From Mycolicibacterium sp. YH-1 (GTDB lineage Bacteria > Actinomycetota > Actinomycetes > Mycobacteriales > Mycobacteriaceae), in contig NZ_CP092915.1 in the NCBI RefSeq assembly GCF_022557175.1, positions 4,588,001 through 4,652,000 of the forward strand: 64,000 bases of DNA. The letters run 5' to 3'. This document shows positions 2,370 through 20,969 of this stretch, in pieces. The translations under genes were made by a program, and so were the position numbers. The notes below the pieces were generated by a model. It saw only the letters and a program-made list of their open reading frames with translations. It was not told the origin of the DNA and did no database searches. Position 1 is the first letter of the stretch; every line of letters begins with the position of its first letter.

Positions 2370-2453
2370 CTACGAACTGTCGTATTTCGTGCCGTCGCGT
2401 CGATCGACGACGCCTAACCGACTGCGATGTCGCTGAATGTTACCGTCGGCGAC

Positions 2454-4303: not shown

Positions 4304-5350
4304 CTAGCCGCCGTGCCCGACCTCGTGCAGCGCCTGCTGGCCGAACTGGCCGAGCGCCAGCGCATCCTCTGGCAGCACCAGATCACCACTGTCGATGCGA
4401 TTGCGCAGGTAGGCGAAGGTCTGCGCGGTCTGCGCGAAGAGGTGCTCGCCAGCGCGCAGCGTGGGACGCTGCGCGCCGTCGGACGTCGCGAACTGAGGTA
4501 GCGGCTTGACCTCGGTGTCGTAGTCGACGTTGAAGAACAGCGGAAACGAGTACCGCTCCTCGCGCACCCTGCGCACGCGATGGCTGGTGGCGACGAAAGC
4601 GCCGTTGGTCCACAGTTCGAGCAGGTCTCCGATGTTGACGACGAGGGTTCCGTCCACTGGGGGCACGTCGATCCACTCCCCCTCGCCGTTCATCACCTCC
4701 AGACCGGGCGCGGTCGGCTTCAAGAGCGTGAAGCACTCGTAGTCGGTGTGGGCACCGATGCCCAGGCCGTCGGTGGCATCGGGGTTGTACGGATAGTGCA
4801 CGAGGCGCAACTGACTCGGTGTCTTGGATGCATGTCGGGAGAACACATCGGGGTCCTCGCCAAGCGCGACCGCGAACGCCCACAGCAGTTGCTGCCCCAC
4901 CTCGAGAACCGCGCCGTAATACGCCGTGACCGCGGTGGCGAAGCCCGGCAGGTCCGGCCACGCATTCGGGCCGAGCATCGGGTTGCCTGCAACGTAGTCG
5001 GGGTCGTCCTCGGGCAGGTCCAACGCCGTGTCGAACGCCTCCTTGAAGTCGGGCGGGCCGGTCTCCATACCCTCCTCCCCGACCGGTACGTAGCCGCGGT
5101 GACAGCGCGATAACCCGATGTAGGTGCGCATCTTCTCCTCGACCGGCAGCGCGAAGAAGGCCTTGGTGGCCTCGAGCAAGCGATCGAACAGTGACTCGTC
5201 GATACCGGTGCCGCTGATGTAGAGGAAGCCGACATCGCGTGCCGCCCGGCCGATCTCGGCGGCGACGCGTTCGCGCTCGGCCCGGTCCTGTGACCGAAGC
5301 CCGCTGATGTCGACGATCGGCACGGATGTGAATGCTGTTGTGCCACTCAT
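4304..5350 (-). CDS. 2-oxoglutarate/Fe(II)-dependent oxygenase (isopenicillin N synthase family)
   Basis: A 348-residue cytoplasmic oxygenase with both family domains: the N-terminal non-haem dioxygenase segment (PIVDISGL, RDVGFLYISGTGID) and the C-terminal double-stranded beta helix. The iron facial triad is visible as His201 and Asp203 (GAHTDYE) and His257 (TSHRVRR). Arg266-x-Ser268 (ERYSF) is the expected 2-oxoglutarate carboxylate site. It is the last gene of a leftward eight-gene operon, and its ATG overlaps the previous stop as ATGA. The substrate is not known. Relatives oxidise amino acids and similar small molecules, and some 2OG enzymes release guanidine from guanidino amino acids. 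That role would fit the neighbouring guanidine-degradation operon, but it is inference only. Confidence 0.88.
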   Translation of the reverse strand: MSGTTAFTSVPIVDISGLRSQDRAERERVAAEIGRAARDVGFLYISGTGIDESLFDRLLEATKAFFALPVEEKMRTYIGLSRCHRGYVPVGEEGMETGPPDFKEAFDTALDLPEDDPDYVAGNPMLGPNAWPDLPGFATAVTAYYGAVLEVGQQLLWAFAVALGEDPDVFSRHASKTPSQLRLVHYPYNPDATDGLGIGAHTDYECFTLLKPTAPGLEVMNGEGEWIDVPPVDGTLVVNIGDLLELWTNGAFVATSHRVRRVREERYSFPLFFNVDYDTEVKPLPQFATSDGAQRPTLRAGEHLFAQTAQTFAYLRNRIDSGDLVLPEDALALGQFGQQALHEVGHGG

Positions 5351-5880
5351 GTATCGATGTCTCCTTCAGTTCGGTCGATCGCCCACCGCGCACCGTTGGC
5401 CTGGACCTGATTCTCAAAGCACCCGATGCCGAGGGCCTGCCATCTCGCCCCGCCCACCGTGTCGATCACCACCACACCGCCGCCGGCCCAGCCGAAGAGC
5501 GTGCCCACCCGGACCAGTAGCCCAGGGGAACCATCGGGTGCGCGCAGAAACCTGGCGCCGCACGGTGACGACGGTCCGCCGTCGCGGACCCAGTGCTCGA
5601 CGTAGTTCTCGTGTATGCCCGTCTCCACCAAAGTGTCACCGTCCCAGGCCATCCTGCCCGCGTCGGGAAGCGGGCCCTGCGGTTCGAGATCGATATCGCG
5701 GTGCCATTCGAAGACGTCGCCACCCACACCCAGCGTGCCCGCGAAACCACGCGAGTCGACGTAAGCGGTTGGGCCCTGCAACCAGGTGACGTCGGTTCCC
5801 GTGTCGCGGGAGCCATCGACGTTCACCAGAAGCGTCCGCCGCCACAAGCCCGCGTAGTCGGCTGCCACCAGAACCGTCAC
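5347..5880 (-). CDS. Uncharacterised protein of the 2OG-oxygenase operon
   Basis: I do not recognise this 177-residue protein with certainty. It is soluble, without a signal peptide or membrane segment. It is rich in short beta-strand-like stretches separated by Gly/Asp turns (LLVNVDGSRDTGTDV, WLQGPTAYVDSR, DVFEWHRDIDLEP, GRMAWDGDTLVE), which suggests a small beta-barrel of lipocalin type. Conserved-looking Trp, His and Glu residues in EWHRD and ENYVEHW could line a pocket. I chose the GTG at 5880 because it overlaps the upstream stop as GTGA; a longer frame would run back into the metallo-hydrolase gene. Its 3' end overlaps the oxygenase start as ATGA. Strict coupling to both neighbours implies a role in the same pathway, perhaps binding or processing the oxygenase product. 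Confidence 0.72.
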   Translation of the reverse strand: MTVLVAADYAGLWRRTLLVNVDGSRDTGTDVTWLQGPTAYVDSRGFAGTLGVGGDVFEWHRDIDLEPQGPLPDAGRMAWDGDTLVETGIHENYVEHWVRDGGPSSPCGARFLRAPDGSPGLLVRVGTLFGWAGGGVVVIDTVGGARWQALGIGCFENQVQANGARWAIDRTEGDIDT

Positions 5881-6719
5881 GGGTTTGCGAACCGATCGTG
5901 GAAGTGCTGTGTCAGCTCCGGCCACACGTGCGGGTCGTGGCCCGGGATCAACTGATAGCCCTTGTCACTAGCCAACTTCTTGAGTCTGCGGATCGGCTCT
6001 ATCGTCTCCTCGGGCTCAACGTCGATGAACCCACCGATCGCCAGTTCCTGTTCGATGTTCTCGGTCAGATCCGCTGCGTCGAAAGCGAACACATACCCTT
6101 CCACGCCCTCGCCGCCGGTAACCGACTCATCGAGTTCGACCACGAAGCTCTGGTGGCCCGGGGTGTGGCCGTACGTCGGCACCGCCGTGATACCCGGCGC
6201 GACCTGCGCCTCCCCGTCGGCGAGGCGCCACTCGATGTTCGGGTCATCGAAGTCGACCCGGACTATGGCGTTGCGCTCCGGCTCGGGGTGGTTGGACAGC
6301 CCGTACTCGAGTTCGCGGCGCTGAGCGTGCACCGGCACCTTGCCCGCGAACAGCTTCAGTCCGCCGGCATGGTCGTGGTGCAGATGGCTGACCGCGACGG
6401 TGTGAATATCGTCGAAGTCGACCCCGACCTCGGCCAACCGCTGCTCGATGGGTTCGCCGGGACCGGGCAGCACCGGCCGGTACTCAACGGTCGGGAAGAA
6501 CCGCCGATACAGCGCGGGATCCCGTACCAGCGCGGTGTTGAACCCGGTGTCGAGCAGCACCCAACCGCCGTCGGTCTGCAGCAGCACACCCGGCACCGGC
6601 TCGCGCATACGCTCCTCGGCCGGCGCCCCGTACACCGACACCGACTTCGGCAGTTCCTCCCAGCCCAGCGTCAGCAGGATGATCCTGCGGACACCGCTGC
6701 GGCGGATGAGTGTCGCCAT
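5877..6719 (-). CDS. Metallo-beta-lactamase-fold hydrolase, N-acyl homoserine lactonase-like
   Basis: A 280-residue cytoplasmic metallo-hydrolase. The zinc motif HxHxDH is complete at His112–His117 (SHLHHDHAGG), followed by a third-ligand region TYGHTPGHQS and a late GHDPHVW. The spacing and the LLDTGFN strand resemble the AttM/AiiB lactonase branch, which opens lactone rings; homologues also act on other esters and amides. Nothing in the context suggests quorum sensing. The gene sits between an ABC-importer binding protein and an unrecognised protein, sharing one base with the first (TGATG) and four with the second (GTGA). I read it as a catabolic hydrolase of the imported compound; the true substrate is unknown. 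Confidence 0.85.
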   Translation of the reverse strand: MATLIRRSGVRRIILLTLGWEELPKSVSVYGAPAEERMREPVPGVLLQTDGGWVLLDTGFNTALVRDPALYRRFFPTVEYRPVLPGPGEPIEQRLAEVGVDFDDIHTVAVSHLHHDHAGGLKLFAGKVPVHAQRRELEYGLSNHPEPERNAIVRVDFDDPNIEWRLADGEAQVAPGITAVPTYGHTPGHQSFVVELDESVTGGEGVEGYVFAFDAADLTENIEQELAIGGFIDVEPEETIEPIRRLKKLASDKGYQLIPGHDPHVWPELTQHFHDRFANP

Positions 6720-8308
6720 CAGCCCACCGACAGGTTGAACAGTCGCAGCGAGTTCGGGTTCGTCACGACGTGCGCCTGCTCCACGCCCTTCAGCCAGGGT
6801 TGGGCGACCATGAAGTCATCGACGTCGGCCATGTTGAGCCAGCAACCCGTCTTGATCGCCTCCTCTGCGGCGGTCGAGAATGGTTGTGGTGCACCACTGT
6901 TCAAACCCTCTGCCAGAGCTGCCGTGATGGGCGGTGCGGAGCACCCCAGATAGTTCAGCCCGCCGTCGGGGTCGAATGTGATGTGTCCCCACGTGTACGG
7001 CGAGGGGGCGTCCGGCCATGCGGTGGCCGAGAAGATCTCCGGGGCTGACTGCCCGTCGGTGCCGATCCAGCCGTAGATCTCCGAGGTCGGATAGCTCTGC
7101 ACCTTCGCGGTCAGCCCTGCCGCGGCGAGCTGAGTCTGAATCAGGTTGCTGATCAGCTGGTTGTCCGGGTTCGACGAGTCGTACCCGATGGTGATCGACT
7201 TCTGGTCGGCGGGCAGGCTCGCCGCGATGTTGGTCAGTATCGACGGATCGTGCGTCACGGACTGCTTGGCGAACTCCGGTGCCATCATGTTCGGCGGGTA
7301 GACCTGCTCGGCCTTCTTGCCGCGGCCGAAGTAGGTCTGCTTGACCAGGGCGTCGACGTCGATCGCCGCCACCACTGCGTTTCGGTTCGCGACGTCGGTG
7401 AACATCCCCTTGCGCGGGTTCAGGTAGAGGTAGTTCGACATCATCGAGGGCAGCGAGTAGTGCGCGTAGGTGTCGTCGTCGAGATACTGCTCGACGGCCG
7501 ATGACGGCAGGTCGTGCATGATCGCGGCGATCTGACCGTTGTTGAACTGCAGCTGTTGCGCCGAGACGTCGGTGATGACGGGGATCTCGACCTTCTCGAA
7601 ATACGGCTTCTCGCCCCAGTATTCGGGATAGGCGGCCAGCGCGTAACGGGACCCGACCTCCGCGGCGGTCAGCGTGTACGGGCCGGTGCCCAGATCGTGG
7701 TTGGTGAGGTAGGTCTGTGCGTTGTCACCGCCGGCGTTCTTCGCCAAGCCCTCGGGGCTGACCATGCGGGGCCCGTAGGGCGACGCGAGATAGTCGAGGA
7801 ATGCCGAGTTGGGCGCCTTGAGGGTGATGGTGGCGGCGTAATCACCCTGTGTCGTCACCGATTCAACGTCCTTGACCATGTAGGCCGGGCCCTGGTTCAC
7901 CGCCGCGCGCCGGTCGAACGACGCCTTGATGGCCGCTGACGTGAACGGGGTCCCGTCATGGAACGTGACACCCTCGCGCAGCTTGAAGGTGAAAACTCTG
8001 TGGTCGGGTGACTCGGTCCACTCGGTCGCGAGCAGCGGCTCGATCTCGGGCTTGGCTGTGCCGCCCTTGTACTGCAGCAGGCCCTCGTAGGTGTTCGTGG
8101 TCAGGAGCAAACCCTGACTGGCGTAGAAGATGTCGGGGTCCGGCGGCTGGCCGGGGTCCTGCAGGAACGACACGTGCAGCACCTTGTCGGTCGGCGCGGC
8201 GCTCGGAGTGCCACCACCGGAGTCCGAACCCCCGCATCCGCTCAGTGCCAGCACGGCTGCGAAGCCGAGTGCCGAGAGGGCGCGAAAACTCATACGCTTC
8301 AACGTCAT
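6719..8308 (-). CDS. ABC transporter substrate-binding lipoprotein (peptide/nickel/opine family 5)
   Basis: A 529-residue family-5 extracellular solute-binding protein. The signal peptide has a basic start, a hydrophobic core and the lipobox ALSGC (Cys25), followed by a Gly/Ser linker, so the protein is anchored outside the membrane. The segments GLLTTNTYEGLLQYKG, FTFKLREGVTFHDGTPF and DLGTGPYTLT are typical of DppA/OppA relatives. The ligand class (dipeptide, opine, guanidino compound, other) cannot be read from sequence. It overlaps the upstream hydrolase gene as ATGA and the downstream hydrolase gene by one base. With the two permeases and the fused ATPase it completes an ABC importer, though the binding-protein gene is separated from the permeases by the cysteine hydrolase. 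Confidence 0.9.
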   Translation of the reverse strand: MTLKRMSFRALSALGFAAVLALSGCGGSDSGGGTPSAAPTDKVLHVSFLQDPGQPPDPDIFYASQGLLLTTNTYEGLLQYKGGTAKPEIEPLLATEWTESPDHRVFTFKLREGVTFHDGTPFTSAAIKASFDRRAAVNQGPAYMVKDVESVTTQGDYAATITLKAPNSAFLDYLASPYGPRMVSPEGLAKNAGGDNAQTYLTNHDLGTGPYTLTAAEVGSRYALAAYPEYWGEKPYFEKVEIPVITDVSAQQLQFNNGQIAAIMHDLPSSAVEQYLDDDTYAHYSLPSMMSNYLYLNPRKGMFTDVANRNAVVAAIDVDALVKQTYFGRGKKAEQVYPPNMMAPEFAKQSVTHDPSILTNIAASLPADQKSITIGYDSSNPDNQLISNLIQTQLAAAGLTAKVQSYPTSEIYGWIGTDGQSAPEIFSATAWPDAPSPYTWGHITFDPDGGLNYLGCSAPPITAALAEGLNSGAPQPFSTAAEEAIKTGCWLNMADVDDFMVAQPWLKGVEQAHVVTNPNSLRLFNLSVG

Positions 8309-8952
8309 CGGGTGGCTCCTTCGAGAACGGGGGTGGTCGGGTGCAGCGTCGCGAACGCGTCCAGGATCTCCTCAGTGCTGCGCACAGCACCTGCCTGCAG
8401 GTACTCCATCGCGTCGAGCGCGGCGTCGTGGCGGTACTGCGACGAGCCACCCACGCAGTCGGCGACCACCCTGACGTGGAAGTCGCGCTGATGGGCGTCG
8501 GCGAACGTGTAGTGGACGCACACGTCGGTGAGACCGCCCACCAGGATCAGCGTGGAGGCCTTCAAACCTGACAGCACGATCTCGAACTCGGTGCCGATGA
8601 AGCCCGAGTAGCGACGCTTGACGATGTGGAACTCCAGGTTCGGTCCGTCCAGATCGGGTAGCAGTGACGGGTGCAACGCCGTGCCGGGTCTGCCGTCGAC
8701 GCAGTGCACACCCTCGGTGCCGTCCAGTTCGCGACCGAAGTCGATTCCGCTGGGGCGGTGGACTTCCTGAAAGAACACGATCGGAATGCTGGCGGCCCGC
8801 GCCGCGGCGATCAGGCGCTGTGCACGTTCGATTCGGCCGTCGTAGCCGGGCATGTGGGCGATACCCACCTCGTCGGCCGGCATGTCACCGGCCTCCTGCA
8901 TGTCGACGACGACCAGAACGGGGTTGTCCACGATGAGTGGCTGTTTCGGCAC
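8305..8952 (-). CDS. Isochorismatase-family cysteine hydrolase
   Basis: A 215-residue cysteine hydrolase of the nicotinamidase/isochorismatase fold. The catalytic triad is visible as Asp17 (VVVDMQ), Lys112 (HIVKRRYSGF) and Cys145 (LTDVCVHYT), with the usual cis-peptide GGLTD before the cysteine. Family members cleave C–N bonds in amides such as nicotinamide, biuret, ureidoacrylate and N-carbamoyl compounds. Lying between ABC-importer genes, and near an allophanate and guanidine pathway, an amide or carbamoyl substrate is plausible. The GTG at 8952 follows AGGAGG, which itself overlaps the stop of the permease gene. Its stop overlaps the next start as ATGA. Confidence 0.86.
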   Translation of the reverse strand: MPKQPLIVDNPVLVVVDMQEAGDMPADEVGIAHMPGYDGRIERAQRLIAAARAASIPIVFFQEVHRPSGIDFGRELDGTEGVHCVDGRPGTALHPSLLPDLDGPNLEFHIVKRRYSGFIGTEFEIVLSGLKASTLILVGGLTDVCVHYTFADAHQRDFHVRVVADCVGGSSQYRHDAALDAMEYLQAGAVRSTEEILDAFATLHPTTPVLEGATR

Positions 8953-9957
8953 CTATCCTCCTGTGATTGCGATACGTGGGTCGGCGGCCGCCTGGAGTAG
9001 GTCCACGGCGGTGTTGATGAAGACGTAGATGGCGCCGAGCATGATGGTGACGCCGGCGATCGCCGGGAAGTCGGCGACCGGAATGCTCTGCGCGATGTAC
9101 TGGCCGATGCCGGGCCACCCGAAGACCTGCTCGACGACGAGAACGCCCGAGAACATCAGGCCCACCTGCAGACCTGTCATCGAGAGCGCGGCACCAACGG
9201 AGTTCCGCAGCACGTGTCGTGCCATGATTGCGCCCTCCGAGAGTCCCTTGGCGCGCGCGGTTCTGGCGTAGTCGCTGTCGATGTCGCCGAGCAGGCTGCT
9301 GCGCAGCACCCGGCCAATCGCCACGGCAGGTCCGATCGCGATGACGAGAGCGGGCAGGATCAGATGGTGCAGTGCGTCGGCCACGACGTCGAACCGTGCG
9401 TGCAGCAGGCCGTCGACCGTCAGCAGGCCGGTGGGCCCGTCGGGCGGGTTCGGCAACCCGCTGCGCCCGTTGGCCGGAAGCCAGCCGAAGCTCTGATAGA
9501 AGACGATGAGCCCGAGGATCCCGAGCAGGAACATCGGCGCCGATGATCCGGTGAACAGCACCGCGCGCAGCAGGCTCGCACCGCGCCACCGCAGTGTCGT
9601 GCTGAAGGCCAGCAGCACCGCGAGCAGGATCGCGATGGCCAGTCCGAACATCGCCAGTTCCAGTGTGGCGGGCAGAAAGTCCCCGAGATCGGACAGCACC
9701 GGGTGACGGGTGCGGTAGGACGTACCGAGGTCGCCGCTCGCCGCGCCGGTGAGGTAGTGCCAGAACTGCACCAGCACGGGCTCGTTGAGTCCAAGTGCTT
9801 CCCGGCGGGCGGCCACGGCGTCGGCCGAGGCCTGCGCACCCAGCTGCGCCTTGACGGGGTCCAGCGGCGAGATGTGTTGCAGGATGAACATCACTCCCGT
9901 GAGTGCGACCAAGATCGCGATCATCGCGCCCAGCCGGGCCGCCACGAATGTCTTCAC
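8953..9957 (-). CDS. ABC transporter permease, DppB/OppB type
   Basis: A 334-residue inner-membrane permease with about six transmembrane segments. It has the binding-protein-dependent transport signature near the C-terminal third (YARTARAKGLSEGAIMARHV), the coupling loop that contacts the ATPase, and a family-typical N-terminal segment FILQHISPLDPV with LGLNEPVLVQFWHYL. It starts with GTG preceded by GAGAAAGG and lies 28 bp after the partner permease. With the 292-residue permease it forms the membrane channel of a family-5 importer. The stop codon overlaps the ribosome site of the hydrolase gene that follows immediately. Confidence 0.9.
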   Translation of the reverse strand: MKTFVAARLGAMIAILVALTGVMFILQHISPLDPVKAQLGAQASADAVAARREALGLNEPVLVQFWHYLTGAASGDLGTSYRTRHPVLSDLGDFLPATLELAMFGLAIAILLAVLLAFSTTLRWRGASLLRAVLFTGSSAPMFLLGILGLIVFYQSFGWLPANGRSGLPNPPDGPTGLLTVDGLLHARFDVVADALHHLILPALVIAIGPAVAIGRVLRSSLLGDIDSDYARTARAKGLSEGAIMARHVLRNSVGAALSMTGLQVGLMFSGVLVVEQVFGWPGIGQYIAQSIPVADFPAIAGVTIMLGAIYVFINTAVDLLQAAADPRIAITGG

Positions 9958-9985
9958 TCAGGCGCCTTTCTCTTCGCGCAAGCGC

Positions 9986-10864
9986 TCATCGGCCGCCGCC
10001 GACCTTCATCAGATTGCGCAGACAGTCCCCGGCGATGTTTCCCACCAGCGCCAGAACGAGCACACCGAGACCGGGCATCACCGGAATCCACCACTGCTGC
10101 AGGAAGTAACTGAGGTTGCGAGCGGAGTCGGCGCCCAACTCCGGTGCGGGAGCGGATTGCCCCAGCCCCAGGAACGACAGTGCTGCCAGCGTGAGGATCA
10201 GCGTCCCGATGTCCAGGCTGGCAGCCACAATCGCGTTGGGCACCGCACCGGGAAGGAGGTGCCTTCCCGCGAGCCGAAATGGGCTCACGCCAGCGAGTTT
10301 CGCGGCCTCGACGTGCGGGCGCGCGGCCAGCCTGGCCACCTCGCCTCGCACCAGCCGTGCATAGAACGGCCACCACACAATGGACACGGCGATCAGCGTG
10401 TGGGCGAACCCGGGTCCGAGAGCGGCCACCACAGCGATCGCCAGCACCGGTGCGGGTAGCGACAGGAACGCGTCGGTGACGCGCATCAGCACCGTGTCCA
10501 CCCAGCCCCCGGTCGCGCCGGCGATCAGACCGACCAGGCCACCGATGAACAACCCGACGGCGACCACCACCAGTGCGGCGAACCAGCTCGAGCGGGCCCC
10601 GTAGAGCACTCGGGACAGGATGTCGCGTCCGATGCTGTCGGTGCCGAGCAGGAAGCCGTTCTTCCCGGGCGACTGCAGCGGCATCCCGACCGGTGTCAAC
10701 GGGTCGTATGGCGCAAGAATCGGCACCGCCAGGACTATCAGCGTCACGACGATGACGAGTGAGAAGCCGATCCAGTTCACCACCATCGGGTTGACCCGTG
10801 GCAGTGCCGGGATCCGGTGCCCGGGCTGACGCGCCAGAGGCACATCGGACAGTGCAATCGCCAT
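9986..10864 (-). CDS. ABC transporter permease, DppC/OppC type
   Basis: A 292-residue second permease of the family-5 importer. The DppC signature is visible: an N-terminal membrane segment, the linker HLLGTDSIGRD-like region (FLLGTDSIGRDILSRVLYGA), and the EAA coupling loop (HVEAAKLAGVSPFRLAGRHL). The ATG at 10864 was chosen over longer frames because it overlaps the stop of the ATPase gene as TGATG, the coupling pattern used throughout the operon. The additional upstream residues would lie in the ATPase gene and are low-complexity. It pairs with the DppB-type gene 28 bp downstream. Confidence 0.9.
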   Translation of the reverse strand: MAIALSDVPLARQPGHRIPALPRVNPMVVNWIGFSLVIVVTLIVLAVPILAPYDPLTPVGMPLQSPGKNGFLLGTDSIGRDILSRVLYGARSSWFAALVVVAVGLFIGGLVGLIAGATGGWVDTVLMRVTDAFLSLPAPVLAIAVVAALGPGFAHTLIAVSIVWWPFYARLVRGEVARLAARPHVEAAKLAGVSPFRLAGRHLLPGAVPNAIVAASLDIGTLILTLAALSFLGLGQSAPAPELGADSARNLSYFLQQWWIPVMPGLGVLVLALVGNIAGDCLRNLMKVGGGR

Positions 10865-12897: not shown

Positions 12898-12955
12898 CGA
12901 AGCACTCCCGGTGTGAGGCGGTTGGTTGGCTGCGGCACCACGTCGTGCTGCTGGC

Positions 12956-12969
12956 CTGTCAGTTGACAG
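12956..12969. promoter_or_regulatory. Operator copy 1 of the guanidine/ABC regulon (inverted repeat)
   Basis: The 14-mer CTGTCAGTTGACAG is an inverted repeat with perfect six-base arms (CTGTCA/TGACAG). It lies 59 bp from the start of the ABC-importer operon and is followed by TTTTC. The same motif plus TTTTC recurs at 20825 in front of the carboxylase operon. I infer a binding site for the TetR regulator encoded alongside. Confidence 0.7.
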
Positions 12970-13049
12970 TTTTCACGGCGCGTGACCCCGACGGGTGTCG
13001 CTGGCGTAACCAATTGACGCCGTACGTAACCGCTGCGTATCGCGCGTTT

Positions 13050-13063
13050 CTATCGTGTGACAG
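13050..13063. promoter_or_regulatory. Operator copy 2 of the guanidine/ABC regulon (inverted repeat)
   Basis: CTATCGTGTGACAG matches the regulon motif CTGTC-R-NN-TGACAG with one change. It lies 31 bp before the TetR start, 94 bp centre-to-centre from copy 1. The core TCGTGTGACAG is identical to copy 4 at 20920. Its position suggests autoregulation of the TetR gene. Confidence 0.65.
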
Positions 13064-13093
13064 AATTCGGAGGGCTACCGAAGGTGGTCCCCC

Positions 13094-13837
13094 ATGGTCC
13101 ACCATGGGGGCATGCCACTCGCCAAGGCCGGACGCCCACGCCTGCATGACCAGCGGCGTCCAGGAACCACCGCGCGTGACGAAATCCTCGATGCCGCAGG
13201 TGAATTGTTCACCACCATGGGCTACACCGGCACGTCGACCAGGACCATCGCCGACTCGGTCGGCATCCGCCAGGCATCGCTCTACCACTACTTCAAGACC
13301 AAGGACGACATTCTCTGTGCGCTGTTGAGCCAGACCGTCGCACCAACGCTGGGCTTCATCCCGAGCCTCCTCGGTGCCGATCCAGCACTCACAGCCGCTG
13401 AACACCTGCATGCGCTGGCCGCGTTCGACGGCAACCAATTACTCAGCGGCCGTTGGAATCTGGGTGCGCTGTACCTGCTGCCAGAGCTTCGTGACGCCAG
13501 GCTGGAGCCGTTCTGGTCGGACCGCGAACGGCTACGACTTCACTACTTGGCGCTCAGCCGTGCGGTGATCGATCAGACCGGCGTCCACGAGGCCGCCGCG
13601 GACCTGCCATTCCGACTCGTCGAATCGCTGGTCAACATGTGGTCGGTGCCCGCAGGACCAGAGCGTGCGGAGCTGCCCGTCCACGTCGCCGACGCCTGCT
13701 TGCGGGTTTTGGGCATCCCCGACGTCGCGGCGACGGGGATACGGGCACGCAGCCTCGACGAGATGGAGCGCTACACCCGCGCCGCGTCCGACGGCGACGA
13801 CGTTGACGGCGACGTGGCGTCGACGTACCCCAGGTAG
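13094..13837 (+). CDS. TetR-family regulator of the guanidine/ABC regulon
   Basis: A 247-residue TetR/AcrR repressor. The DNA-binding helix-turn-helix is near residues 28–74 (ARDEILDAAGELFTTMGY, then SVGIRQASLYHYFKTKDDIL); the C-terminal ligand domain is not assignable to a known ligand class. The ATG at 13094 has AAGGTGG six bases upstream; a second ATG at 13112 is crowded by its upstream G-run, so I kept the first. It diverges from the ABC-importer operon and is convergent with atzF, overlapping that gene's 3' end by 67 bp. Placement between two operons whose promoters share its putative operator makes it the likely local regulator, sensing guanidine or a related metabolite by inference. 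Confidence 0.85.
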   Translation: MVHHGGMPLAKAGRPRLHDQRRPGTTARDEILDAAGELFTTMGYTGTSTRTIADSVGIRQASLYHYFKTKDDILCALLSQTVAPTLGFIPSLLGADPALTAAEHLHALAAFDGNQLLSGRWNLGALYLLPELRDARLEPFWSDRERLRLHYLALSRAVIDQTGVHEAAADLPFRLVESLVNMWSVPAGPERAELPVHVADACLRVLGIPDVAATGIRARSLDEMERYTRAASDGDDVDGDVASTYPR

Positions 13838-15576
13838 GTCGGCCAGTCGCCGTGGCGCGATATGTCCTCGCCTTCACGCCATGCCTGCAGGGCACAGCCG
13901 AACCCGACCACCTCGGTGCCGTCGGCGAGCGTGACGGCACCGAGTGACATCGGGGCGGGCAGCGCAGCCAGGAAGTCACCCAACATGGCCGTGCCGATGA
14001 GCCACAGCTCGCCGCCTATCGCGGTGCCGTCTTGGTGGCCCACGCGCGCCAGCCCAGGCTTGGGCGGTGTGGTGTCCAGCGCCGCGAGTCGGTACAGCGG
14101 CGCGGTGCGGGCCGGCCCGATCCAGCGCGCACCGCGGTCGGTCAGCTGCCACGCCAGTGGTTGACCGCGCAGGTGCGCGCCCACCACGAGAAGCTTTACC
14201 GCAGTCAATCCGGCGCTCGTCGGCCAGGGCGGCGGTGCAGCGGCTGGTGCGAGGGCAGCGGCTGGTGCGAGTGCGGTGCCCGGAGCGGCCACCGACTCCG
14301 GCTGCTCGATGACCAGCCGCGCGATATCGAGGGCGACGGCGTCGGCACCGGGCCGCGCGATGACCGACACCCCGAACTGGTCCTCCCCCGCGGTGCCCGA
14401 CGGCACGGCGACGGCGCACAGATCCATCAGGTTGCAGAAATTGGTGTAGGTGCCCAGCCGCGCGTTCACGGTGACCGGTTCTGCGGTGACCTCGGCGATC
14501 GTCGGATGCTCCGTGGTGGTCGGGATCAGCAGCGCATCGCAGCCCTCGAGTTCTGCCATCGCCGTTGCCGTCAGCGTCGCGAGGCGGGCACGGTCGGCAA
14601 GCAGGGTGCTCGCGGTGACCTCACCGGCCGCCGCCACGATCGCGCCGACGGTGGGGTCGACCTCGTCGCGGTGGGCGTCGACGAATGCGCCGACGGCCTC
14701 GTGTCGTTCGGCAACTAGCCCGCCGTCGTACAGCAGCCTCGCGGCGGACAGGAACGGGCCCAGGTCGATCTCCTTCAGTGTCACACCGCGATTGGCGAGC
14801 CGCTCGCACGCCGCCCGGAATGCGGCCTGCCACTGGACGGACAGCGCCGGAAGCTCCCGCGGCACCGCCACGACCGGGGCGTCGGGGGCGGCAAGCGGCG
14901 CGTCGGGCGGGAACGGCCGTGCACCGCTCGTCTCGTCCGGGCCGGCCATCACACCCATCGCGGCAGAGGCCGTGTCGAGGTCACGCGCGAAGACCGTCAC
15001 GCAGTCATAGGACCGACAGGCCGGCACGACGCCGTCGGTCGGCACCACACCGTAGGTGGGCTTGATGCCGACGATCCCCTGCAGTGCTGCGGGCACCCGC
15101 CCCGATCCCGCCGTGTCCGTGCCGACCGCCACGTCGACGAGGCCAAGGGCCACCGCGACAGCGGATCCCGCGCTGGACCCACCCGATATGCGGTCGGGCC
15201 TGCGGGCATCGCGGACGGCGCCGTGCGGGCTGCGCGTTCCGACCAGACCGGTGGCGAACTGATCGAGGTTGGTTGCGCCGATCACGACCGCACCCGCCGC
15301 TCGCAGACGAGCGACCGCGGCCGCGTCCTTTGTCGCGGGCGTCGACGAGTAGGTCGGACAGCCCGCGGTGGTGGGCAGGCCGGCGACGTCGACGTTGTTC
15401 TTGACCGCCGCCACCAGTCCAGCCAGTGGGAGTTCAGCACCCCCGGCGACCAAGACGTCGACCGCCTCGGCATCGGCAAGCGATTCCGCCATGGGGCGCA
15501 GGAAGATCCAGACTTCGGGACGTTGCCCGGCTTCGATCGCGGCGTACGCCGCGCGAACCCGCTCGACCGCCGTCAT
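13771..15576 (-). CDS. atzF: Allophanate hydrolase (AtzF type)
   Basis: A 601-residue amidase-signature enzyme that splits allophanate into ammonia and CO2, the last step of the urea/guanidine carboxylation route. The Ser–cisSer–Lys triad is visible with family spacing: Lys59 (AAVKNNVDVAG), Ser134 (SGGSSAGSA) and Ser158 (GTDTAGSGRVPA). Beyond about residue 470 is the AtzF-specific C-terminal domain (PLYRLAALDTTPPKPGLARVG and GFGCALQAWREGEDISRHG), so the protein is full length. The ATG at 15576 overlaps the carboxylase stop as ATGA; longer frames run into that gene. It is the last gene of its operon, and its final 67 bp overlap the convergent TetR gene. Confidence 0.93.
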   Translation of the reverse strand: MTAVERVRAAYAAIEAGQRPEVWIFLRPMAESLADAEAVDVLVAGGAELPLAGLVAAVKNNVDVAGLPTTAGCPTYSSTPATKDAAAVARLRAAGAVVIGATNLDQFATGLVGTRSPHGAVRDARRPDRISGGSSAGSAVAVALGLVDVAVGTDTAGSGRVPAALQGIVGIKPTYGVVPTDGVVPACRSYDCVTVFARDLDTASAAMGVMAGPDETSGARPFPPDAPLAAPDAPVVAVPRELPALSVQWQAAFRAACERLANRGVTLKEIDLGPFLSAARLLYDGGLVAERHEAVGAFVDAHRDEVDPTVGAIVAAAGEVTASTLLADRARLATLTATAMAELEGCDALLIPTTTEHPTIAEVTAEPVTVNARLGTYTNFCNLMDLCAVAVPSGTAGEDQFGVSVIARPGADAVALDIARLVIEQPESVAAPGTALAPAAALAPAAAPPPWPTSAGLTAVKLLVVGAHLRGQPLAWQLTDRGARWIGPARTAPLYRLAALDTTPPKPGLARVGHQDGTAIGGELWLIGTAMLGDFLAALPAPMSLGAVTLADGTEVVGFGCALQAWREGEDISRHGDWPTYLGYVDATSPSTSSPSDAARV

Positions 15577-18500
15577 GCCGGGATGCCCGCCGCGTCGCGT
15601 CCCGCCGAGGGCGGACCGACCACCACCAACGGCGCACCCGGGTCCACCTGATGGCCCGCCTGCACCAGGATCTGCGTCACGATGCCGTCGGTCGGCGCCC
15701 TCAACACGGTCTCCATCTTCATCGCCTCCAATGCCAGCAGCGACTGTCCGGCCACCACACACTCACCCACCTCGACGTCGACCTTCCACACACTCGATGC
15801 GAACGGCGCATCGACCCGTTGTTCACCGTCATCGAGGACGAGATCGGCGGTCGGCGGCTCGGCGTGCGACTCCGCCCTTTCGGCACGGTCGAACTCGCCG
15901 GCCGCGGCCCATGCGGCACGTTCGGTGGCGAATGCCGCACCCTGGCGCTCACGGAAGTCCGCGATCGACGCCGCGTGCTCGTCCAGGAACCGTTCGTGTT
16001 CGGCCAGCGAGAAGGTGCCCTCGGTGATATCGATCGAACCCCGCCCAGCCGCGAGATCGGCACGCATGTCGAGCAGCTCGTCGGGCGACACCGGGTACCA
16101 GGAGATGCGGTCGAAGAAGCGCAGTAGCCAGGGGCTGCCCGGCTCGAACGGTGTCGTGTGCCGATAGCGGCTCCAGACCTGCGTGGTGCGTCCCACGAAC
16201 TGGTAGCCGCCGGGACCCTCCATGCCGTAGATGCACAGATAGGCGCCGCCGATGCCGACGGAGTTCTCCGCAGTCCATGTGCGGGCCGGGTTGTACTTGG
16301 TGGTGACCAGCCGATGTCGGGGATCCAGTGGGGTGGCGACGGGTGCCCCCAGGTACACGTCCCCGAGTCCGAGTGTCAGGTACTCCGCCGAGAAGACGAC
16401 GTCCATGACGTCGGCCTGCGATGCCAGACCGTTGACACGGCGGATGAACTCGATGTTCGACGGGCACCACGGCGCGTCGTCGCGCACGCCGGAGGTGTAG
16501 CGGGCGATGGCCTCCCGCGTCGCCGGGTCATCCCATGACAGGGGCAGCCGCACCGAACGGCTGGGCACGACGAGCTCCGATGTCCCGGGGAGATCGTCCT
16601 CCAACTCGAACAGCAGGCCAAGCAGGCGGTCGATCGGTAGCACGTCGGGGTCGACGTGCACCTGCAGCGACCGGATGCCCGGCGTCAGGTCGACGATGCC
16701 GTGCACGGATCCGCCCGCGATCTCCGCCTGAAGCCGGCCGTGCAGCGCGTGCACGCGCGCCCGCAGCGCGAGATCGAGAACCATGTCGCCATACTCGACG
16801 AGCACGTTGTCATCCCCGTTGCGGCGGTAGGTGACGCTCGGCGCGCCGTCGTCCGCACGCCGGGCCAGCACGCCGTCATCCCCGTCGCCGCCGGTCCGCA
16901 CCACCGATGACGTTGCACCACGGGTGATTCCGAGGTCACTGCGGGACGGCGCCTCCGCTGCGCGGATGGGCACGAACCGCACGGTGTCACCGGGGCGCAG
17001 CTGGCCGAGCTTCCATCTGTCGGCGGTGACGACGGTCACCGGGCACACGAAGCCGCCCAGGCTGGGCCCGTCGGGTCCGAGCAGGATCGGGGTGTCTCCG
17101 GTGAAGTCCAGGGCACCGATGGAGTACGCGGTGTCGTGGATGTTGGACGGGTGCAGTCCCGCGTTCCCGCCGTCGGGTCGGGCCCACTGCGGCCGTGGTC
17201 CCTCGAGTCGGACCCCTGTGCGCGCCGAGTTGAAGTGCACGCGGTAACTGGCGTCGAATAGTGTCTGGATATCGGCGCGGGTGAAGAACTCCGGTGCGCC
17301 GTGCGGACCCTCGGTGACCGCGAGGTCCCAGTCCGACGGAATCGCAGGGCGCACCTCGGGTCCGATCGGTCCCGTTGGTTCGGCGTCTCGCGACCGCGGC
17401 GCAGCGCGCAGGACATCACCGACGACCAGTTGGCGGCCGCCGTGGCCACCGAACCGTCCCAGCGTGAACGTCGATGCGCTGCCCAGATATTCGGGCACAT
17501 CCAAACCACCCGCGACGAGCAGGTAGGTTCGCAGTCCGGTCGTCTCGGCCGCGCCGATGTCGAGGAGTGCGCCTGCTGCGACCTCGACCGGCTCCCACAT
17601 CGGGACAGCCGAACCGTCGACGGTCACGGCGCATTCGGCGCCCGTGACACACACCGTGGTCGGGTGAGTGACGCGCAGCGCCGGACCCGAGGCGGTGCAC
17701 TCCAGGCCGGGTGCCCCCTCGGCGTTGCCCAACGCCAGGTTGCCGAGCCGAAACGACAGATCGTCCATCGGCCCGCTGGGCGGAACCCCGACGCCCCAGA
17801 GCCCGAGCCGGCCGGGCAGATCCTGCACCGTCGTCAATAGGCCCGGCCGTTCGACGGTTATCCGCGGCCGTGGATCGGCGACCTCGGCGAGGGTGGACGT
17901 ACTGTGCGCGGCTGCCCGTACGTCGGAACTGTCCACGGCCGCGCGGAGCAGTCCTACGTTGACCTCGATACCGTGCAGGACCGTCCCCTCCAACGCACGA
18001 CCCAACCGATCGAGCGCCTCGTTGCGGTCGGCGCCTGCGGTGATCACCTTGGCCAGCAGCGGATCATACGATGCCGAGACCTCGGTGCCCTGCTCGATCC
18101 AGGCGTCAACGCGCACGTCGTCACCGGTCGGGAGGGTCACGGCGGTCAGGGTTCCCGTGCTCGGGCGGTAGTCACGCGAGGGGTCCTCGGCGTATACCCG
18201 CGCCTCGACGGCGTGTCCCCGAACGGTCACCTCGCCGCTGGTCACTCCCGGGCGCAGGTACGGGGCAAGGACGTCACCCTCACCGCGCGCCAGCCGAAAC
18301 ATCCAGCCCGCCAGGTCAACTCCCGTCACGGCCTCGGTGACGGGATGCTCGACCTGCAGACGCGCGTTGACCTCGAGAAAGGACGCCTCCTGCCGCCGCG
18401 GATCGTAGACGAACTCGACGGTGCCCGCGGACCGGTAGTCAACCGACCCCGCCAACCTCCGAGACGACGAATGCAGTTGGCTTCGAATAGCATCGGGCAA

Positions 18501-19301
18501 CGCGGGCGCCGGCGCCTCCTCCATCACCTTCTGGTTGCGGCGTTGCAGCGAGCAGTCGCGGTCACCGAGGGAGACGACGCCACCCGCACCGTCGCCGAAG
18601 ATCTGGACTTCGACGTGGCGCGCGTGTTCGACGAACCGCTCGACGAAGACACCTGCCGCTCCGAAGCTTCGGGCGGCGAGGCGTGTCACGCGGTCGAAGG
18701 CCGCGCGCATGTCGTCAGCGCTGTGACAGACCTGCATGCCTATCCCACCACCGCCACCGGTGGCCTTGAGCATCACCGGATAGCCGATCGTCTCCGCTGC
18801 GGCGACGGCCTCGTCCGCGGAGTCGAGCAGACCGGATCCGGGGAACACCGGAACACCCGCGGCGACGGCCGCCGACCGTGCGGTGTGCTTGGTGCCGAAG
18901 ACGCGTAGTTGATGCGGCGTCGGACCCACGAACACCAGGCCCGCGCGTTCGACCGCCTCGGCGAATTCGGCGTCCTCGGAGAGGAAGCCGTATCCGGGGT
19001 GCACCATGTCGGCGCCATTCGCCAGTGCGGCAGCGACGATGGCATCCGCCCGCAGGTAGCTCTCGCTCGGCGCGGCCGGGCCCAGCAGCACGGCCTCGTC
19101 GGCGAGACGGACGTGCGGTGCGCCACGGTCGGCCTCGGAGAACACCGCCACGGTGCGAAGACCGAGGGTTTGTGCGGCACGCAACAACCTGACGGCGATC
19201 TCACCGCGGTTGGCGATCAGGACAGTCTCGATGCGCGATCCCGCTTCGCTTCTCGCTCGGTCGATGCGCGATCCCGCTTCGCTTCTCGCTGTCTCGCTCA
19301 T
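15573..19301 (-). CDS. Biotin-dependent urea/guanidine carboxylase
   Basis: A 1,242-residue biotin enzyme. Residues about 25–470 are a biotin carboxylase (TVLIANRGEIAVRLLRAAQ, MVHPGYGFLSED, and the ATP-grasp loop KATGGGGGIGM near 180). About 500–800 is the KipA-like half (RPGLLTTVQDLPGRLG) and 850–1050 the KipI-like half of the carboxyltransferase. The C-terminus is a biotinyl domain with the biotin lysine at about 1195 (LEAMKMET). Such enzymes carboxylate urea or guanidine. The two DUF1989 partners encoded just upstream favour guanidine, because homologous pairs act as carboxyguanidine deiminase. The ATG at 19301 overlaps the preceding stop as ATGA. The first 24 residues carry an in-frame duplication (SEAGSRI twice) from a 30-bp direct repeat. 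Confidence 0.92.
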   Translation of the reverse strand: MSETARSEAGSRIDRARSEAGSRIETVLIANRGEIAVRLLRAAQTLGLRTVAVFSEADRGAPHVRLADEAVLLGPAAPSESYLRADAIVAAALANGADMVHPGYGFLSEDAEFAEAVERAGLVFVGPTPHQLRVFGTKHTARSAAVAAGVPVFPGSGLLDSADEAVAAAETIGYPVMLKATGGGGGIGMQVCHSADDMRAAFDRVTRLAARSFGAAGVFVERFVEHARHVEVQIFGDGAGGVVSLGDRDCSLQRRNQKVMEEAPAPALPDAIRSQLHSSSRRLAGSVDYRSAGTVEFVYDPRRQEASFLEVNARLQVEHPVTEAVTGVDLAGWMFRLARGEGDVLAPYLRPGVTSGEVTVRGHAVEARVYAEDPSRDYRPSTGTLTAVTLPTGDDVRVDAWIEQGTEVSASYDPLLAKVITAGADRNEALDRLGRALEGTVLHGIEVNVGLLRAAVDSSDVRAAAHSTSTLAEVADPRPRITVERPGLLTTVQDLPGRLGLWGVGVPPSGPMDDLSFRLGNLALGNAEGAPGLECTASGPALRVTHPTTVCVTGAECAVTVDGSAVPMWEPVEVAAGALLDIGAAETTGLRTYLLVAGGLDVPEYLGSASTFTLGRFGGHGGRQLVVGDVLRAAPRSRDAEPTGPIGPEVRPAIPSDWDLAVTEGPHGAPEFFTRADIQTLFDASYRVHFNSARTGVRLEGPRPQWARPDGGNAGLHPSNIHDTAYSIGALDFTGDTPILLGPDGPSLGGFVCPVTVVTADRWKLGQLRPGDTVRFVPIRAAEAPSRSDLGITRGATSSVVRTGGDGDDGVLARRADDGAPSVTYRRNGDDNVLVEYGDMVLDLALRARVHALHGRLQAEIAGGSVHGIVDLTPGIRSLQVHVDPDVLPIDRLLGLLFELEDDLPGTSELVVPSRSVRLPLSWDDPATREAIARYTSGVRDDAPWCPSNIEFIRRVNGLASQADVMDVVFSAEYLTLGLGDVYLGAPVATPLDPRHRLVTTKYNPARTWTAENSVGIGGAYLCIYGMEGPGGYQFVGRTTQVWSRYRHTTPFEPGSPWLLRFFDRISWYPVSPDELLDMRADLAAGRGSIDITEGTFSLAEHERFLDEHAASIADFRERQGAAFATERAAWAAAGEFDRAERAESHAEPPTADLVLDDGEQRVDAPFASSVWKVDVEVGECVVAGQSLLALEAMKMETVLRAPTDGIVTQILVQAGHQVDPGAPLVVVGPPSAGRDAAGIPA
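19228..19290. repeat. 30-bp direct repeat, two copies, inside the start of the carboxylase gene
   Basis: Bases 19228–19257 and 19261–19290 are identical over 30 bp and are offset by 33 bp, so the duplication stays in frame. On the coding strand each copy reads AGCGAGAAGCGAAGCGGGAT and onward, and encodes SEAGSRI plus flanking residues. It lies immediately after the ATGA junction. The duplicated stretch precedes the biotin carboxylase fold and is probably tolerated as a disordered leader. Confidence 0.85.
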
Positions 19302-19939
19302 GCGACTCCCTCCGGCCGGGTGACGATCATGCGCACGGGGGTCGGGTCGAAGGCATTGCACGGGTTGTTGATCTGCGGGCAGTTGGACACCAGGACGAGG
19401 GTGTCGACCTCGGCCCGCAGCGCCACGCGCTTACCCGGTGCGGACAAGCCGTCGACGATTCCCAACGCGCCATCGGGATCGACCGGCACGTTCATGAACC
19501 AGTTGATGTTGCTGGCCAGATCGCGTGCACCGAGCCCGTATCTGGCGCCCTCGATGAGGAAGTTCTCTATACATCCGTGTTGTGCGCGGGTGTGTTGCCC
19601 GTAGCGCAGTGTGTTCGACTCCTTCGAACAGGCGCCGCCGAGGGTGTCGTGCACGCCGACCTCGTCGTCGACGACCGTCATGAGCGCCGCGCCGGTGTCG
19701 GCACGCAGGACCGACCCGGTGCTCAGGGCGATCCTGCCCTGCCGCGCAACCGTTTCCGATGCCGAGTAGCGCACTGTGGTGTCGGAGGCGTCATACAGCA
19801 GGCAGTCGACAGCCTGGTTTCCGGCCAGATCGACGATCGTGAGAACGTCACCGGCGGCAACGACGGCCGACCAGGGGCCACGCGCGGCGACGCCCTGATC
19901 GAGCACGACCGTGCCGGGGACGAGGGCGGTGATGCTCAC
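19298..19939 (-). CDS. DUF1989 protein, UAAP2 type (putative carboxyguanidine deiminase subunit)
   Basis: A 213-residue DUF1989/urea-carboxylase-associated protein. Family hallmarks are IVDLAGNQAVDCLLYDA, the cysteine-containing CSKESNTLRYGQHTRAQHGC, and the late NCPQINNPCN motif, which look like metal or catalytic sites. Pairs of such proteins next to carboxylases (CgdA/CgdB) have been shown in other bacteria to deiminate carboxyguanidine to allophanate. Assignment to this step is by family and context. It starts with GTG, overlapping the upstream partner as GTGA, and ends overlapping the carboxylase start as ATGA. Confidence 0.87.
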   Translation of the reverse strand: MSITALVPGTVVLDQGVAARGPWSAVVAAGDVLTIVDLAGNQAVDCLLYDASDTTVRYSASETVARQGRIALSTGSVLRADTGAALMTVVDDEVGVHDTLGGACSKESNTLRYGQHTRAQHGCIENFLIEGARYGLGARDLASNINWFMNVPVDPDGALGIVDGLSAPGKRVALRAEVDTLVLVSNCPQINNPCNAFDPTPVRMIVTRPEGVA

Positions 19940-20784
19940 AGGACTCCTCTGGCGTGAAGATCGGCGTCGGTGTTGGCGATTGCCTGGCGGTGTTCCGGTC
20001 CGAGCGGGCCGACGAGCTCACCCGCAACCAGTCGGTCGAGATCGCCGGTGGCGGGCCAGGCGTGCACGAGCAGCGGCGAGCAGGTGAAGTCGGGTCTCGG
20101 GTCCAGGGGATGCGCGGTGTTCGCGAGGAGGACTATCGCGTCGACGTGCAGCAGGACATCGACGGTGGCGCCAGGGCCCGCCGATCCCCGCCACTGCAGG
20201 GAGCCGTCATGGGCGACCCGGACACCCTTGAAGAACGACACCGATGGCGGCAGATCACGTTGCCCGAGACCGTGTTTGAGCGCTCCCAGCAGCAGCAGAT
20301 CTCGTCCCGCAGGCGATGCGGACTCCGGTGCCGACGCACCGTACTTCGCGTCGTTGCCGGCCCGCGTCGTGGTGCCGGTGAGCGCGTCGTGGGCCGTCGA
20401 CGTGTCGGCGACCACGGTCGCGAGCACGCGGCCGAAACCGCTCAGCAGCGGATGGCCCACGCCGAGGTATGCCTGCCACGGCACCTTGACGGTGTCGGCG
20501 ACGTTGAGCCGCTCGTGCGGTCCGTCGGCGCGGTGCAGCATTAGGTGCGCGCACGCGTCACCGTCGGGGTCGGCGAGGCGGATGCGCGTGCCGCGGGCCA
20601 TCACCGCGGCCGTGTATCCGCCTGGTGCAATGGTTTCCGACCACACCAGGCGGTCGGTCGAGACGTCCTCGGGTGCCGTCGAGCTGCTCGATGCTGGCAC
20701 GTGGCGCATGAAGTCGGTGGCGCGCCCGTGCTGTGCGCGGGCGTGGGCCTTGGCCCCCGCGGTGGTGGCGGTGTCGCTCGTCAC
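19936..20784 (-). CDS. DUF1989 protein, UAAP1 type (putative carboxyguanidine deiminase subunit)
   Basis: A 282-residue DUF1989 protein, longer than its partner because of an Ala/Ser-rich N-terminal extension of about 45 residues. The domain is seen in DGDACAHLMLHRADGPHERLN, AKYGASAPESAS, LPPSVSFFKGVRVAHDG and the late NTAHPLDPRPDFTCSP. With the 213-residue protein it would form the two-subunit deiminase that turns carboxyguanidine into allophanate and ammonia. This is the first gene of the four-gene leftward operon. The GTG start has GGGGAGAG upstream, and the shared operators lie 41 and 136 bp before it. Confidence 0.87.
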   Translation of the reverse strand: MTSDTATTAGAKAHARAQHGRATDFMRHVPASSSSTAPEDVSTDRLVWSETIAPGGYTAAVMARGTRIRLADPDGDACAHLMLHRADGPHERLNVADTVKVPWQAYLGVGHPLLSGFGRVLATVVADTSTAHDALTGTTTRAGNDAKYGASAPESASPAGRDLLLLGALKHGLGQRDLPPSVSFFKGVRVAHDGSLQWRGSAGPGATVDVLLHVDAIVLLANTAHPLDPRPDFTCSPLLVHAWPATGDLDRLVAGELVGPLGPEHRQAIANTDADLHARGVL

Positions 20785-20824
20785 AACTCTCCCCGGTATC
20801 GCGATATCGCTTCAGCGAATATTT

Positions 20825-20838
20825 CTGTCGATTGACAG
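20825..20838. promoter_or_regulatory. Operator copy 3 of the guanidine/ABC regulon (inverted repeat)
   Basis: CTGTCGATTGACAG, followed by TTTTC, is the counterpart of copy 1 and lies 41 bp from the start of the DUF1989–carboxylase–atzF operon. The arms CTGTC and GACAG pair exactly. Confidence 0.7.
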
Positions 20839-20919
20839 TTTTCGGGAGAACGCGGGGTCCGTGGTTGCCCCGGTGTAACCGATCACGGGGCGTTCGTTAA
20901 CAACACGCGTCGCATGTGT

Positions 20920-20933
20920 CTGTCGTGTGACAG
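20920..20933. promoter_or_regulatory. Operator copy 4 of the guanidine/ABC regulon (inverted repeat)
   Basis: CTGTCGTGTGACAG lies 95 bp from copy 3 and shares TCGTGTGACAG with copy 2. It is 36 bp before the rightward YciI gene, so it could also affect that gene. GTAACC occurs 45 bp before this site, and 44 bp before copy 2 in the other promoter. Confidence 0.68.
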
Positions 20934-20969
20934 GTATCGCACCAACGGTGGTGCCGTAGTCTTCGTGGC

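Follow-up and report, generated by a model that had tools for sequence, protein, structure and literature searches.

Two neighbouring operons of Mycolicibacterium sp. YH-1 as a probable AmtR-controlled regulon for methylguanidine and guanidine assimilation

In Mycolicibacterium sp. YH-1, an operon of the guanidine-assimilation type (operon A, 20784 to 13771: two DUF1989 proteins, a biotin carboxylase and AtzF) lies beside an operon encoding an importer, two hydrolases, an oxygenase and a protein of 177 amino acids (aa) (operon B, 12897 to 4304), and the question raised by this locus is whether the second operon feeds the first, and with which compound. Both lie in the window, i.e. the whole stretch of 64,000 nucleotides analysed here (NZ_CP092915.1, positions 4,588,001 to 4,652,000; the genome is a single contig of 7.27 Mb). 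A sequence-only reading had proposed one regulon, in which operon B supplies guanidine or a guanidine-bearing precursor to operon A. The two operons, the TetR gene between them and two inverted repeats per promoter are all present at the coordinates that it gave, as judged from open reading frames (ORFs) and from Pfam and NCBIfam scans. Our analyses make it likely that the two operons constitute one AmtR-repressed, nitrogen-controlled regulon assimilating methylguanidine and guanidine.

The compound is suggested by the last two genes of operon B, the second of which had been left as an oxygenase and the first as an unknown protein:

5347..5880, minus strand: MgdL-like N-(hydroxymethyl)guanidine lyase, putative, short form of 177 aa with a GTG start
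4304..5350, minus strand: MgdH-like 2-oxoglutarate (2OG)/Fe(II) methylguanidine hydroxylase, putative, with domains PF14226 and PF03171 (DIOX_N and 2OG-FeII_Oxy); mgdL directly adjoins it

Sequence comparison supports a match of these proteins to MgdL and MgdH, which were reported from Vreelandella in October 2025 as a pair that demethylates methylguanidine (PMC12508155). In the MgdL of V. boliviensis, a beta-barrel protein, the catalytic Asp and Arg are two residues apart (D49/R51), and Glu/Asp and Trp residues bind the guanidinium (PMC12508155). The window protein has an Asp-x-Arg motif, D57/R59 (numbered on its 192-aa ORF), that is invariant in 76 of 76 aligned sequences, among them that of Pseudomonas profundi, used here as a proxy for the Vreelandella protein. 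R30, W48, W74, E101, Y108, E110 and W112 are equally invariant, and E101, E110, W48, W74 and W112 are candidates for the residues of the published guanidinium pocket. AlphaFold2 models of the window and P. profundi MgdL consist mostly of strands (pLDDT 93.4 and 94.9) and are matched by VIA-align to 3rby and to lipocalin-like barrels, so that the window protein is predicted to have the beta-barrel fold of the lyase. It has 376 homologues at E 0.001; no Pfam domain is present in any of the 120 listed, and those of them that bear a name are mycobacterial. Concerning MgdH, the window protein is 57% identical to that of P. profundi, and H201, D203, H257 and R266, which we take to be the HxD...H motif and the 2OG-binding Arg of 2OG/Fe(II) oxygenases, are at least 98% conserved across 102 sequences.

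As a side observation, the best VIA-align match of both MgdL models (window 5347-5880; P. profundi locus L116, 11020-11964) is yeast HRI1 (YLR301w, PDB 3rby), a protein called uncharacterized in its PDB title. The identity is 11-12%, Pfam HRI1 matches below its cut-off only, 3rby is absent from the 50 Foldseek rows listed, and a common fold says nothing on function. PDB sequence searches with MgdL gave no usable match; in Foldseek, the window model had no match at E 0.001, and that of P. profundi matched only a sliding-clamp chain (TM 0.15). The literature search found no paper joining YLR301w/Hri1 with methylguanidine or MgdL. A fold link between the MgdL lyase and yeast HRI1 is suggested by the models.

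The contig scan with the MgdH alignment confirmed 583 relatives, and neighbourhoods were counted in the best 80 of them (L-numbers denote fetched loci and G-numbers relative genomes; L022/L110 and L023/L104 are the same or nearly the same genomes). Of the 80 loci, 77 have a match to the MgdL profile no more than 5 kb from MgdH, in Actinomycetota, Alpha- and Gammaproteobacteria, a count which says nothing of more distant oxygenases because these loci are the best of 583; two of the three exceptions (L070, L077) are cut near contig ends. A carboxylase is present in 18 of these loci, while 35 contain a Dpp importer, 19 an allantoinase-like gene and 27 AmtR. In L049-L056 (Mycobacterium, Mycolicibacterium, Geodermatophilus) and in L032, the genes of both operons form one cluster in the order Cgd1-Cgd2-GCA-AtzF-MgdL-MgdH, followed in L032 and L049 by an ORF of 502-523 aa, which we read as a symporter, and then by AmtR. 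In P. profundi (L116) and in L159, the MgdH/MgdL pair adjoins a guanidine carboxylase (gca) operon with guanidine-I and -II riboswitches. Other proteobacterial loci have the order LysR, MgdL, MgdH (L061) or, by Pfam, LysR, (MgdL), NMT1-like binding protein, MgdH (L067), with further loci similar by our reading. The MgdL of the L116 type was matched in 16 of 341 genomes of the order of P. profundi, some weakly, and no recognisable Vreelandella operon was found in these 341 genomes.

Within the closer relatives, MgdL is matched (E 1e-3) in 14 of 61 genomes, all of one genus, and MgdH (E 1e-90) in the same 14; in genomes drawn from the phylum, MgdL matches number 4 of 346, one of the four weak. 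DUF1989 is present in 12 of the 14 MgdH-positive genomes versus 14 of the 47 others (Fisher p 0.0004, uncorrected for relatedness) and, inside the genus, in 12 of 14 versus 7 of 23 (p 0.002).

Three variants in or around the pair were also seen. In L032 (8044-10545), MgdL is apparently fused to the C-terminus of AtzF in a single frame of 833 aa; in G009 (C1:2971723-2972114; L013, L016), the mgdL match beside mgdH is split in two frames; and in L023 (11667-14008), as in L080, L089 and L104, the genes of the binding protein and of the metallo-hydrolase are present a second time, downstream of mgdH. This duplication suggests that the two proteins may work together.

The genes of operon A, together with the regulator, are as follows:

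19936..20784, minus strand: DUF1989/UAAP1 protein, putative carboxyguanidine deiminase subunit of the CgdA/B type (Pfam PF09347; NCBIfam TIGR03425 above cut-off)
19298..19939, minus strand: DUF1989/UAAP2 protein, putative second carboxyguanidine deiminase subunit (Pfam PF09347; NCBIfam TIGR03424 above cut-off)
15573..19361, minus strand: putative guanidine carboxylase (NCBIfam TIGR02712, above cut-off), with Asp752 and the biotin site AMKM
13771..15762, minus strand: AtzF allophanate hydrolase (Amidase and AH_C)
13094..13837, plus strand: AmtR-like TetR repressor, predicted

The sequence GAINFTGD of the Kluyveromyces lactis urea carboxylase (3va7) reads GALDFTGD in the window, where Asp752 presumably is the residue of a published Asp/Asn rule. 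According to the accessible part of PMC12186494, which states this rule, guanidine carboxylases are recognised by an aspartate and urea carboxylases by an asparagine. The Asp is found in the window and in all 18 loci with a readable pattern, riboswitch-linked L116 and L159 included (loci with a cut gene or a missing pattern were left out). Operon A most likely consumes guanidine. Elsewhere, G033 (C123:767-3889) has four tandem DUF1989 domains, and in G021 (C8:360964-362961), G020 (C1:1792227-1794227) and G016 (C1:2663889-2665859) the carboxylase query was matched from about residue 497 to 1165 only, with a TGA crossed in two of the three; this is perhaps a split carboxylase.

The promoters of the two operons are built in the same manner, the repeat CTGTC-N4-GACAG being present twice in each:

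20920..20933: predicted AmtR-type operator of operon A, distal, 95 bp from the proximal one
20864..20879, minus strand: predicted GlnR-type box GTTAC-n6-GCAAC, midway between the operon A operators, an exact match to the M. smegmatis GlnR motif Gn2AC-n6-GnAAC (as given in the accessible part of PMC3662644)
20825..20838: predicted AmtR-type operator of operon A, proximal
13050..13063: predicted AmtR-type operator of operon B and amtR, with one mismatch, 94 bp from the other
12995..13010, minus strand: GlnR-like box GTTAC-n6-GACAC, midway between the operon B operators, one mismatch to the published motif
12956..12969: predicted AmtR-type operator of operon B, proximal

The best solved relative of the TetR protein is 5e57, 'Transcription regulator AmtR' (189 bits, E 7.3e-55), and the next ones score 98-109 bits; with 5mqq and 6gy3, three of the six best are named AmtR, and 5dy1, 5dxz and 5dy0, also among the best, are labelled only as TetR family. 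We take 5e57 to be the AmtR of M. smegmatis and the last three to be that of Corynebacterium glutamicum. The exact operator, CTGTCRNNYGACAG, occurs 5 times in 7.27 Mb, 3 times in these two promoters and twice inside ORFs. With up to 2 mismatches, 18 matches are found in the window, a number reached by 17 of 100 shuffles, and with up to 1 mismatch 74 places are found in the genome versus 118 for a reversed control pattern, i.e. no enrichment. The evidence for the operator is its placement and conservation, not the genome-wide count of loose matches. In 38 sources, window included, in which the start of a DppDF, Cgd1 or AmtR match lies inside the fetched stretch, operators with at most one mismatch number 65 in 19.8 kb of promoter windows versus 16 in 794 kb elsewhere, and they stand upstream of a Dpp- or Cgd-type operon in 36 of the 38 (L074 and L100 are without a site). 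By these comparisons the TetR protein appears AmtR-like and tied to a conserved operator, and the common operator pair, together with this gene between the operons, supports the proposal of one regulon.

The spacing of the paired operators is 94 bp in 14, 95 bp in 13 and 96 bp in 1 of the 28 two-site promoters (27 distinct, L023 being L104), about nine helical turns; single-site promoters, e.g. of Rhodococcus and Streptomyces, were left out of this count. The exact GlnR motif is present at the midpoint in 9 of the 28, all of the gca type, versus 0.24 of 28 in shuffles, and a relaxed pattern, picked after the sequences had been seen, in 23 of the 28 versus 0.59. A 2016 paper by Petridis reportedly deals, by its title, with competitive binding of AmtR and GlnR. 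According to the accessible part of PMC4222082, the AmtR of M. smegmatis is a repressor that binds upstream of msmeg_2184, where GlnR is required for nitrogen control, and the DNA binding of AmtR is unaffected by urea and by amino acids; GlnR binding to the same promoter is given in the accessible part of PMC3662644. The window has no Rfam match at gathering score, and no guanidine family is matched in 12700-21200 even when E values up to 5 are admitted; guanidine riboswitches were found in none of 7 actinobacterial loci and in 2 of 7 gammaproteobacterial loci, the latter with both guanidine-I and -II.

The remaining genes of operon B are those of the importer and of two accessory hydrolases:

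10864..12897, minus strand: fused DppD-DppF importer ATPase (two stretches each of ABC_tran and oligo_HPY)
9986..10951, minus strand: DppC/NikC-like permease (NCBIfam Opp2C/NikC matches, below cut-offs)
8953..9957, minus strand: DppB-like permease (Pfam BPD_transp_1)
8305..8952, minus strand: isochorismatase-like cysteine hydrolase (PF00857), its nearest solved relatives, biuret hydrolases 6xjm and 5bk6, being distant
6719..8308, minus strand: SBP_bac_5 solute-binding protein (PF00496)
5877..6719, minus strand: metallo-beta-lactamase-fold hydrolase, lactonase-like (PF00753; nearest solved relative the AHL lactonase AiiA; NCBIfam lactonase models match far below cut-off)

A guanylurea or biuret hydrolase was considered for the cysteine enzyme and rejected: relatives of about 54% identity, in three plasmid regions, follow ABC importers of various kinds, and because of this variety no function follows. 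A nickel guanidinase near the pair was likewise rejected, since tblastn with two arginase-family proteins matched 10 of 10 control loci and 0 of 101 mgdHL loci, five other matches, in the wrong reading frame on alcohol dehydrogenase genes, being excluded; arginase-family genes are found elsewhere in the genome of 5 of 7 named proteobacteria.

Taken together, these data would fit the following scheme. The Dpp-type importer may bring in methylguanidine or a larger guanidino/ureido compound, MgdH would hydroxylate the methyl group with 2OG and O2, and operon B would most likely yield guanidine and formaldehyde, because of the MgdH/MgdL matches, the riboswitch context in P. profundi and the Asp of the carboxylase. 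By homology, the biotin enzyme would carboxylate guanidine, the DUF1989 pair would deiminate the product and AtzF would hydrolyse the last intermediate to ammonia and CO2. AmtR dimers on two in-phase operators would flank the GlnR-type box; under nitrogen limitation GlnR would activate, and AmtR may be released when a compound of the pathway is present. The demethylation and guanidine steps are assigned by homology and context. The idea that operon B delivers guanidine from a guanidine-bearing precursor is supported through MgdH/MgdL, and methylguanidine fits as this precursor.

Several observations weigh against this scheme. The homology to the assayed V. boliviensis enzymes (MgdL A0A265DXW6) is by the P. 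profundi proxy only, and the proxy MgdL is 22% identical to that of the window, with 315 versus 177 aa. The third exception among the 80 loci, L109, has the importer and MgdH with no MgdL match, and in 26 of the 80 the fetched stretch contains no carboxylase, no Dpp importer and no allantoinase-like gene. NCBIfam names the window carboxylase a urea carboxylase (TIGR02712). G011 and G019 carry MgdH/MgdL without DUF1989 and without a carboxylase at E 1e-150, so that either the pair can do without operon A or these two genomes are losing the pathway. Finally, 18 of the 35 Dpp-type loci have an allantoinase-like gene inserted between the genes of the metallo-hydrolase and of MgdL.

Because this gene is present in roughly half of the related importer operons, and because operon B occurs in two genomes that lack the carboxylase, a ureide role has to be taken seriously as a competing reading, in which operon B would be an allantoin-type operon, the MgdL-like protein a ureidoglycolate-type lyase, and urea would reach operon A; ureidoglycolate is, like N-(hydroxymethyl)guanidine, a hemiaminal and therefore a conceivable substrate of the short MgdL. 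By Pfam, the insert of L027 (10038-13134) contains an amidohydrolase and an allantoicase, and that of L030 (10001-13112) a racemase together with an allantoicase; allantoinase-like and allantoicase genes fill the same gap in L021, L024, L028, L029 and L031, and the racemase joins the inserts in L028-L031. Of 101 loci, 27 are matched by the allantoinase-like gene in a strict tblastn, and 8 by the three kinds of gene together. The window operon, in contrast, has no allantoinase or allantoicase gene, and allantoicase was not found in this genome, whereas it was matched in 5 of 5 genomes searched alongside (one being that of the query), which makes an action on ureidoglycolate unlikely here. Moreover, L049-L059 and L116 have MgdL/MgdH with gca and without the allantoinase-like gene, the candidate pocket residues are invariant, the carboxylase has the Asp and the genome has a urease. 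We consider the ureide role improbable for the window.

It is equally doubtful that the oxygenase acts on a guanidino compound of larger size (arginine, homoarginine, guanidinoacetate or creatine) to free guanidine, with MgdL splitting the resulting hemiaminal, on the model of the ethylene-forming enzyme or of plant clade-23 dioxygenases. The best solved relative, 9ovh, is labelled ethylene/succinate-forming enzyme, and a substrate of greater size than methylguanidine is suggested by the peptide-type importer, the cysteine hydrolase and the lactonase-like enzyme. However, among the derivatives tried, the MgdH of V. boliviensis was active only on methylguanidine and N,N-dimethylguanidine (PMC12508155), and the 102 aligned MgdH sequences, those of P. 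profundi and the window included, share 86 columns with an identity of at least 98%. Arginine cleavage of the ethylene-forming kind was set aside, the close relatives of the oxygenase going with mgdL. That the operons share general nitrogen control only, operon B importing an unrelated compound whose products never meet those of operon A, is very improbable: operon A is missing from two genomes that have operon B, and in G004, G009, G018 and G024 operon B is far from adhC, but the shared operator architecture is rare elsewhere in the same loci, DUF1989 is enriched in the MgdH-positive genomes, and gca and mgdHL are one cluster in relatives.

The regulon (4304-20784) sits between a fecB-like (2427-3554) and an adhC-like gene (21399-22445), both names being our own reading. 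In 30 adhC neighbourhoods, fetched from 38 relatives with a close adhC, fecB stands beside adhC in 18, AmtR or Cgd1 in 7 (window included) and neither in 5. From this adjacency, operon B, amtR and operon A are together an insert at one site of a conserved mycobacterial gene order; at the same site, operon B and amtR are present in G011 and G019, without operon A. A small ORF upstream of operon A (20970-21245), YCII-like by our reading, adjoins adhC even where the regulon is missing.

Compared with known systems, the Vreelandella boliviensis gca-mgdH-mgdL operon (PMC12508155) has the same MgdH, MgdL, guanidine carboxylase, carboxyguanidine deiminase pair, AtzF and ABC importer, but is a single operon under riboswitch control, whereas two operons with AmtR operators, a Dpp-type importer, a cysteine hydrolase and a metallo-hydrolase are found here; the main text of that paper mentions neither mycobacteria nor actinobacteria nor AmtR. 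The M. smegmatis msmeg_2184-2189 regulon has likewise AmtR and GlnR on a promoter of two urf genes, carboxylase and amidase, but in the accessible part of PMC4222082 it is called urea carboxylase/amidolyase, its amtR is not co-located, and no MgdH/MgdL operon is mentioned. In Pseudomonas mendocina (PMC9800807) an isochorismatase-like guanylurea hydrolase feeds the same guanidine pathway; the likeness of the cysteine hydrolase here to solved biuret hydrolases is only distant. The earlier remark that this combination was not known as a described pathway holds only in part, the MgdH/MgdL step having been published in October 2025 and AmtR control of such a carboxylase cluster in 2013: it would be a variant of a known pathway with a new control, AmtR instead of a riboswitch.

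Since actinobacterial gca/mgdHL clusters carry AmtR operators where two gammaproteobacterial ones carry guanidine riboswitches, actinobacterial AmtR might be a protein sensor of guanidine or methylguanidine, the counterpart of these riboswitches, a proposal that we make tentatively. Guanidine-binding transcription factors are still to be found, according to the accessible part of the review PMC12186494. The literature search found no paper linking AmtR to guanidine and, by titles and abstract openings, none on the methylguanidine pathway in mycobacteria. With the assignments made here, the 2025 methylguanidine pathway would reach beyond halophilic gammaproteobacteria to mycobacteria, nocardias, rhodococci and alphaproteobacteria, and the window MgdL would be a second, compact form of the lyase. 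A regulon described as one of urea metabolism would become a guanidine/methylguanidine one, and the question of the missing AmtR effector would thereby be directly testable.

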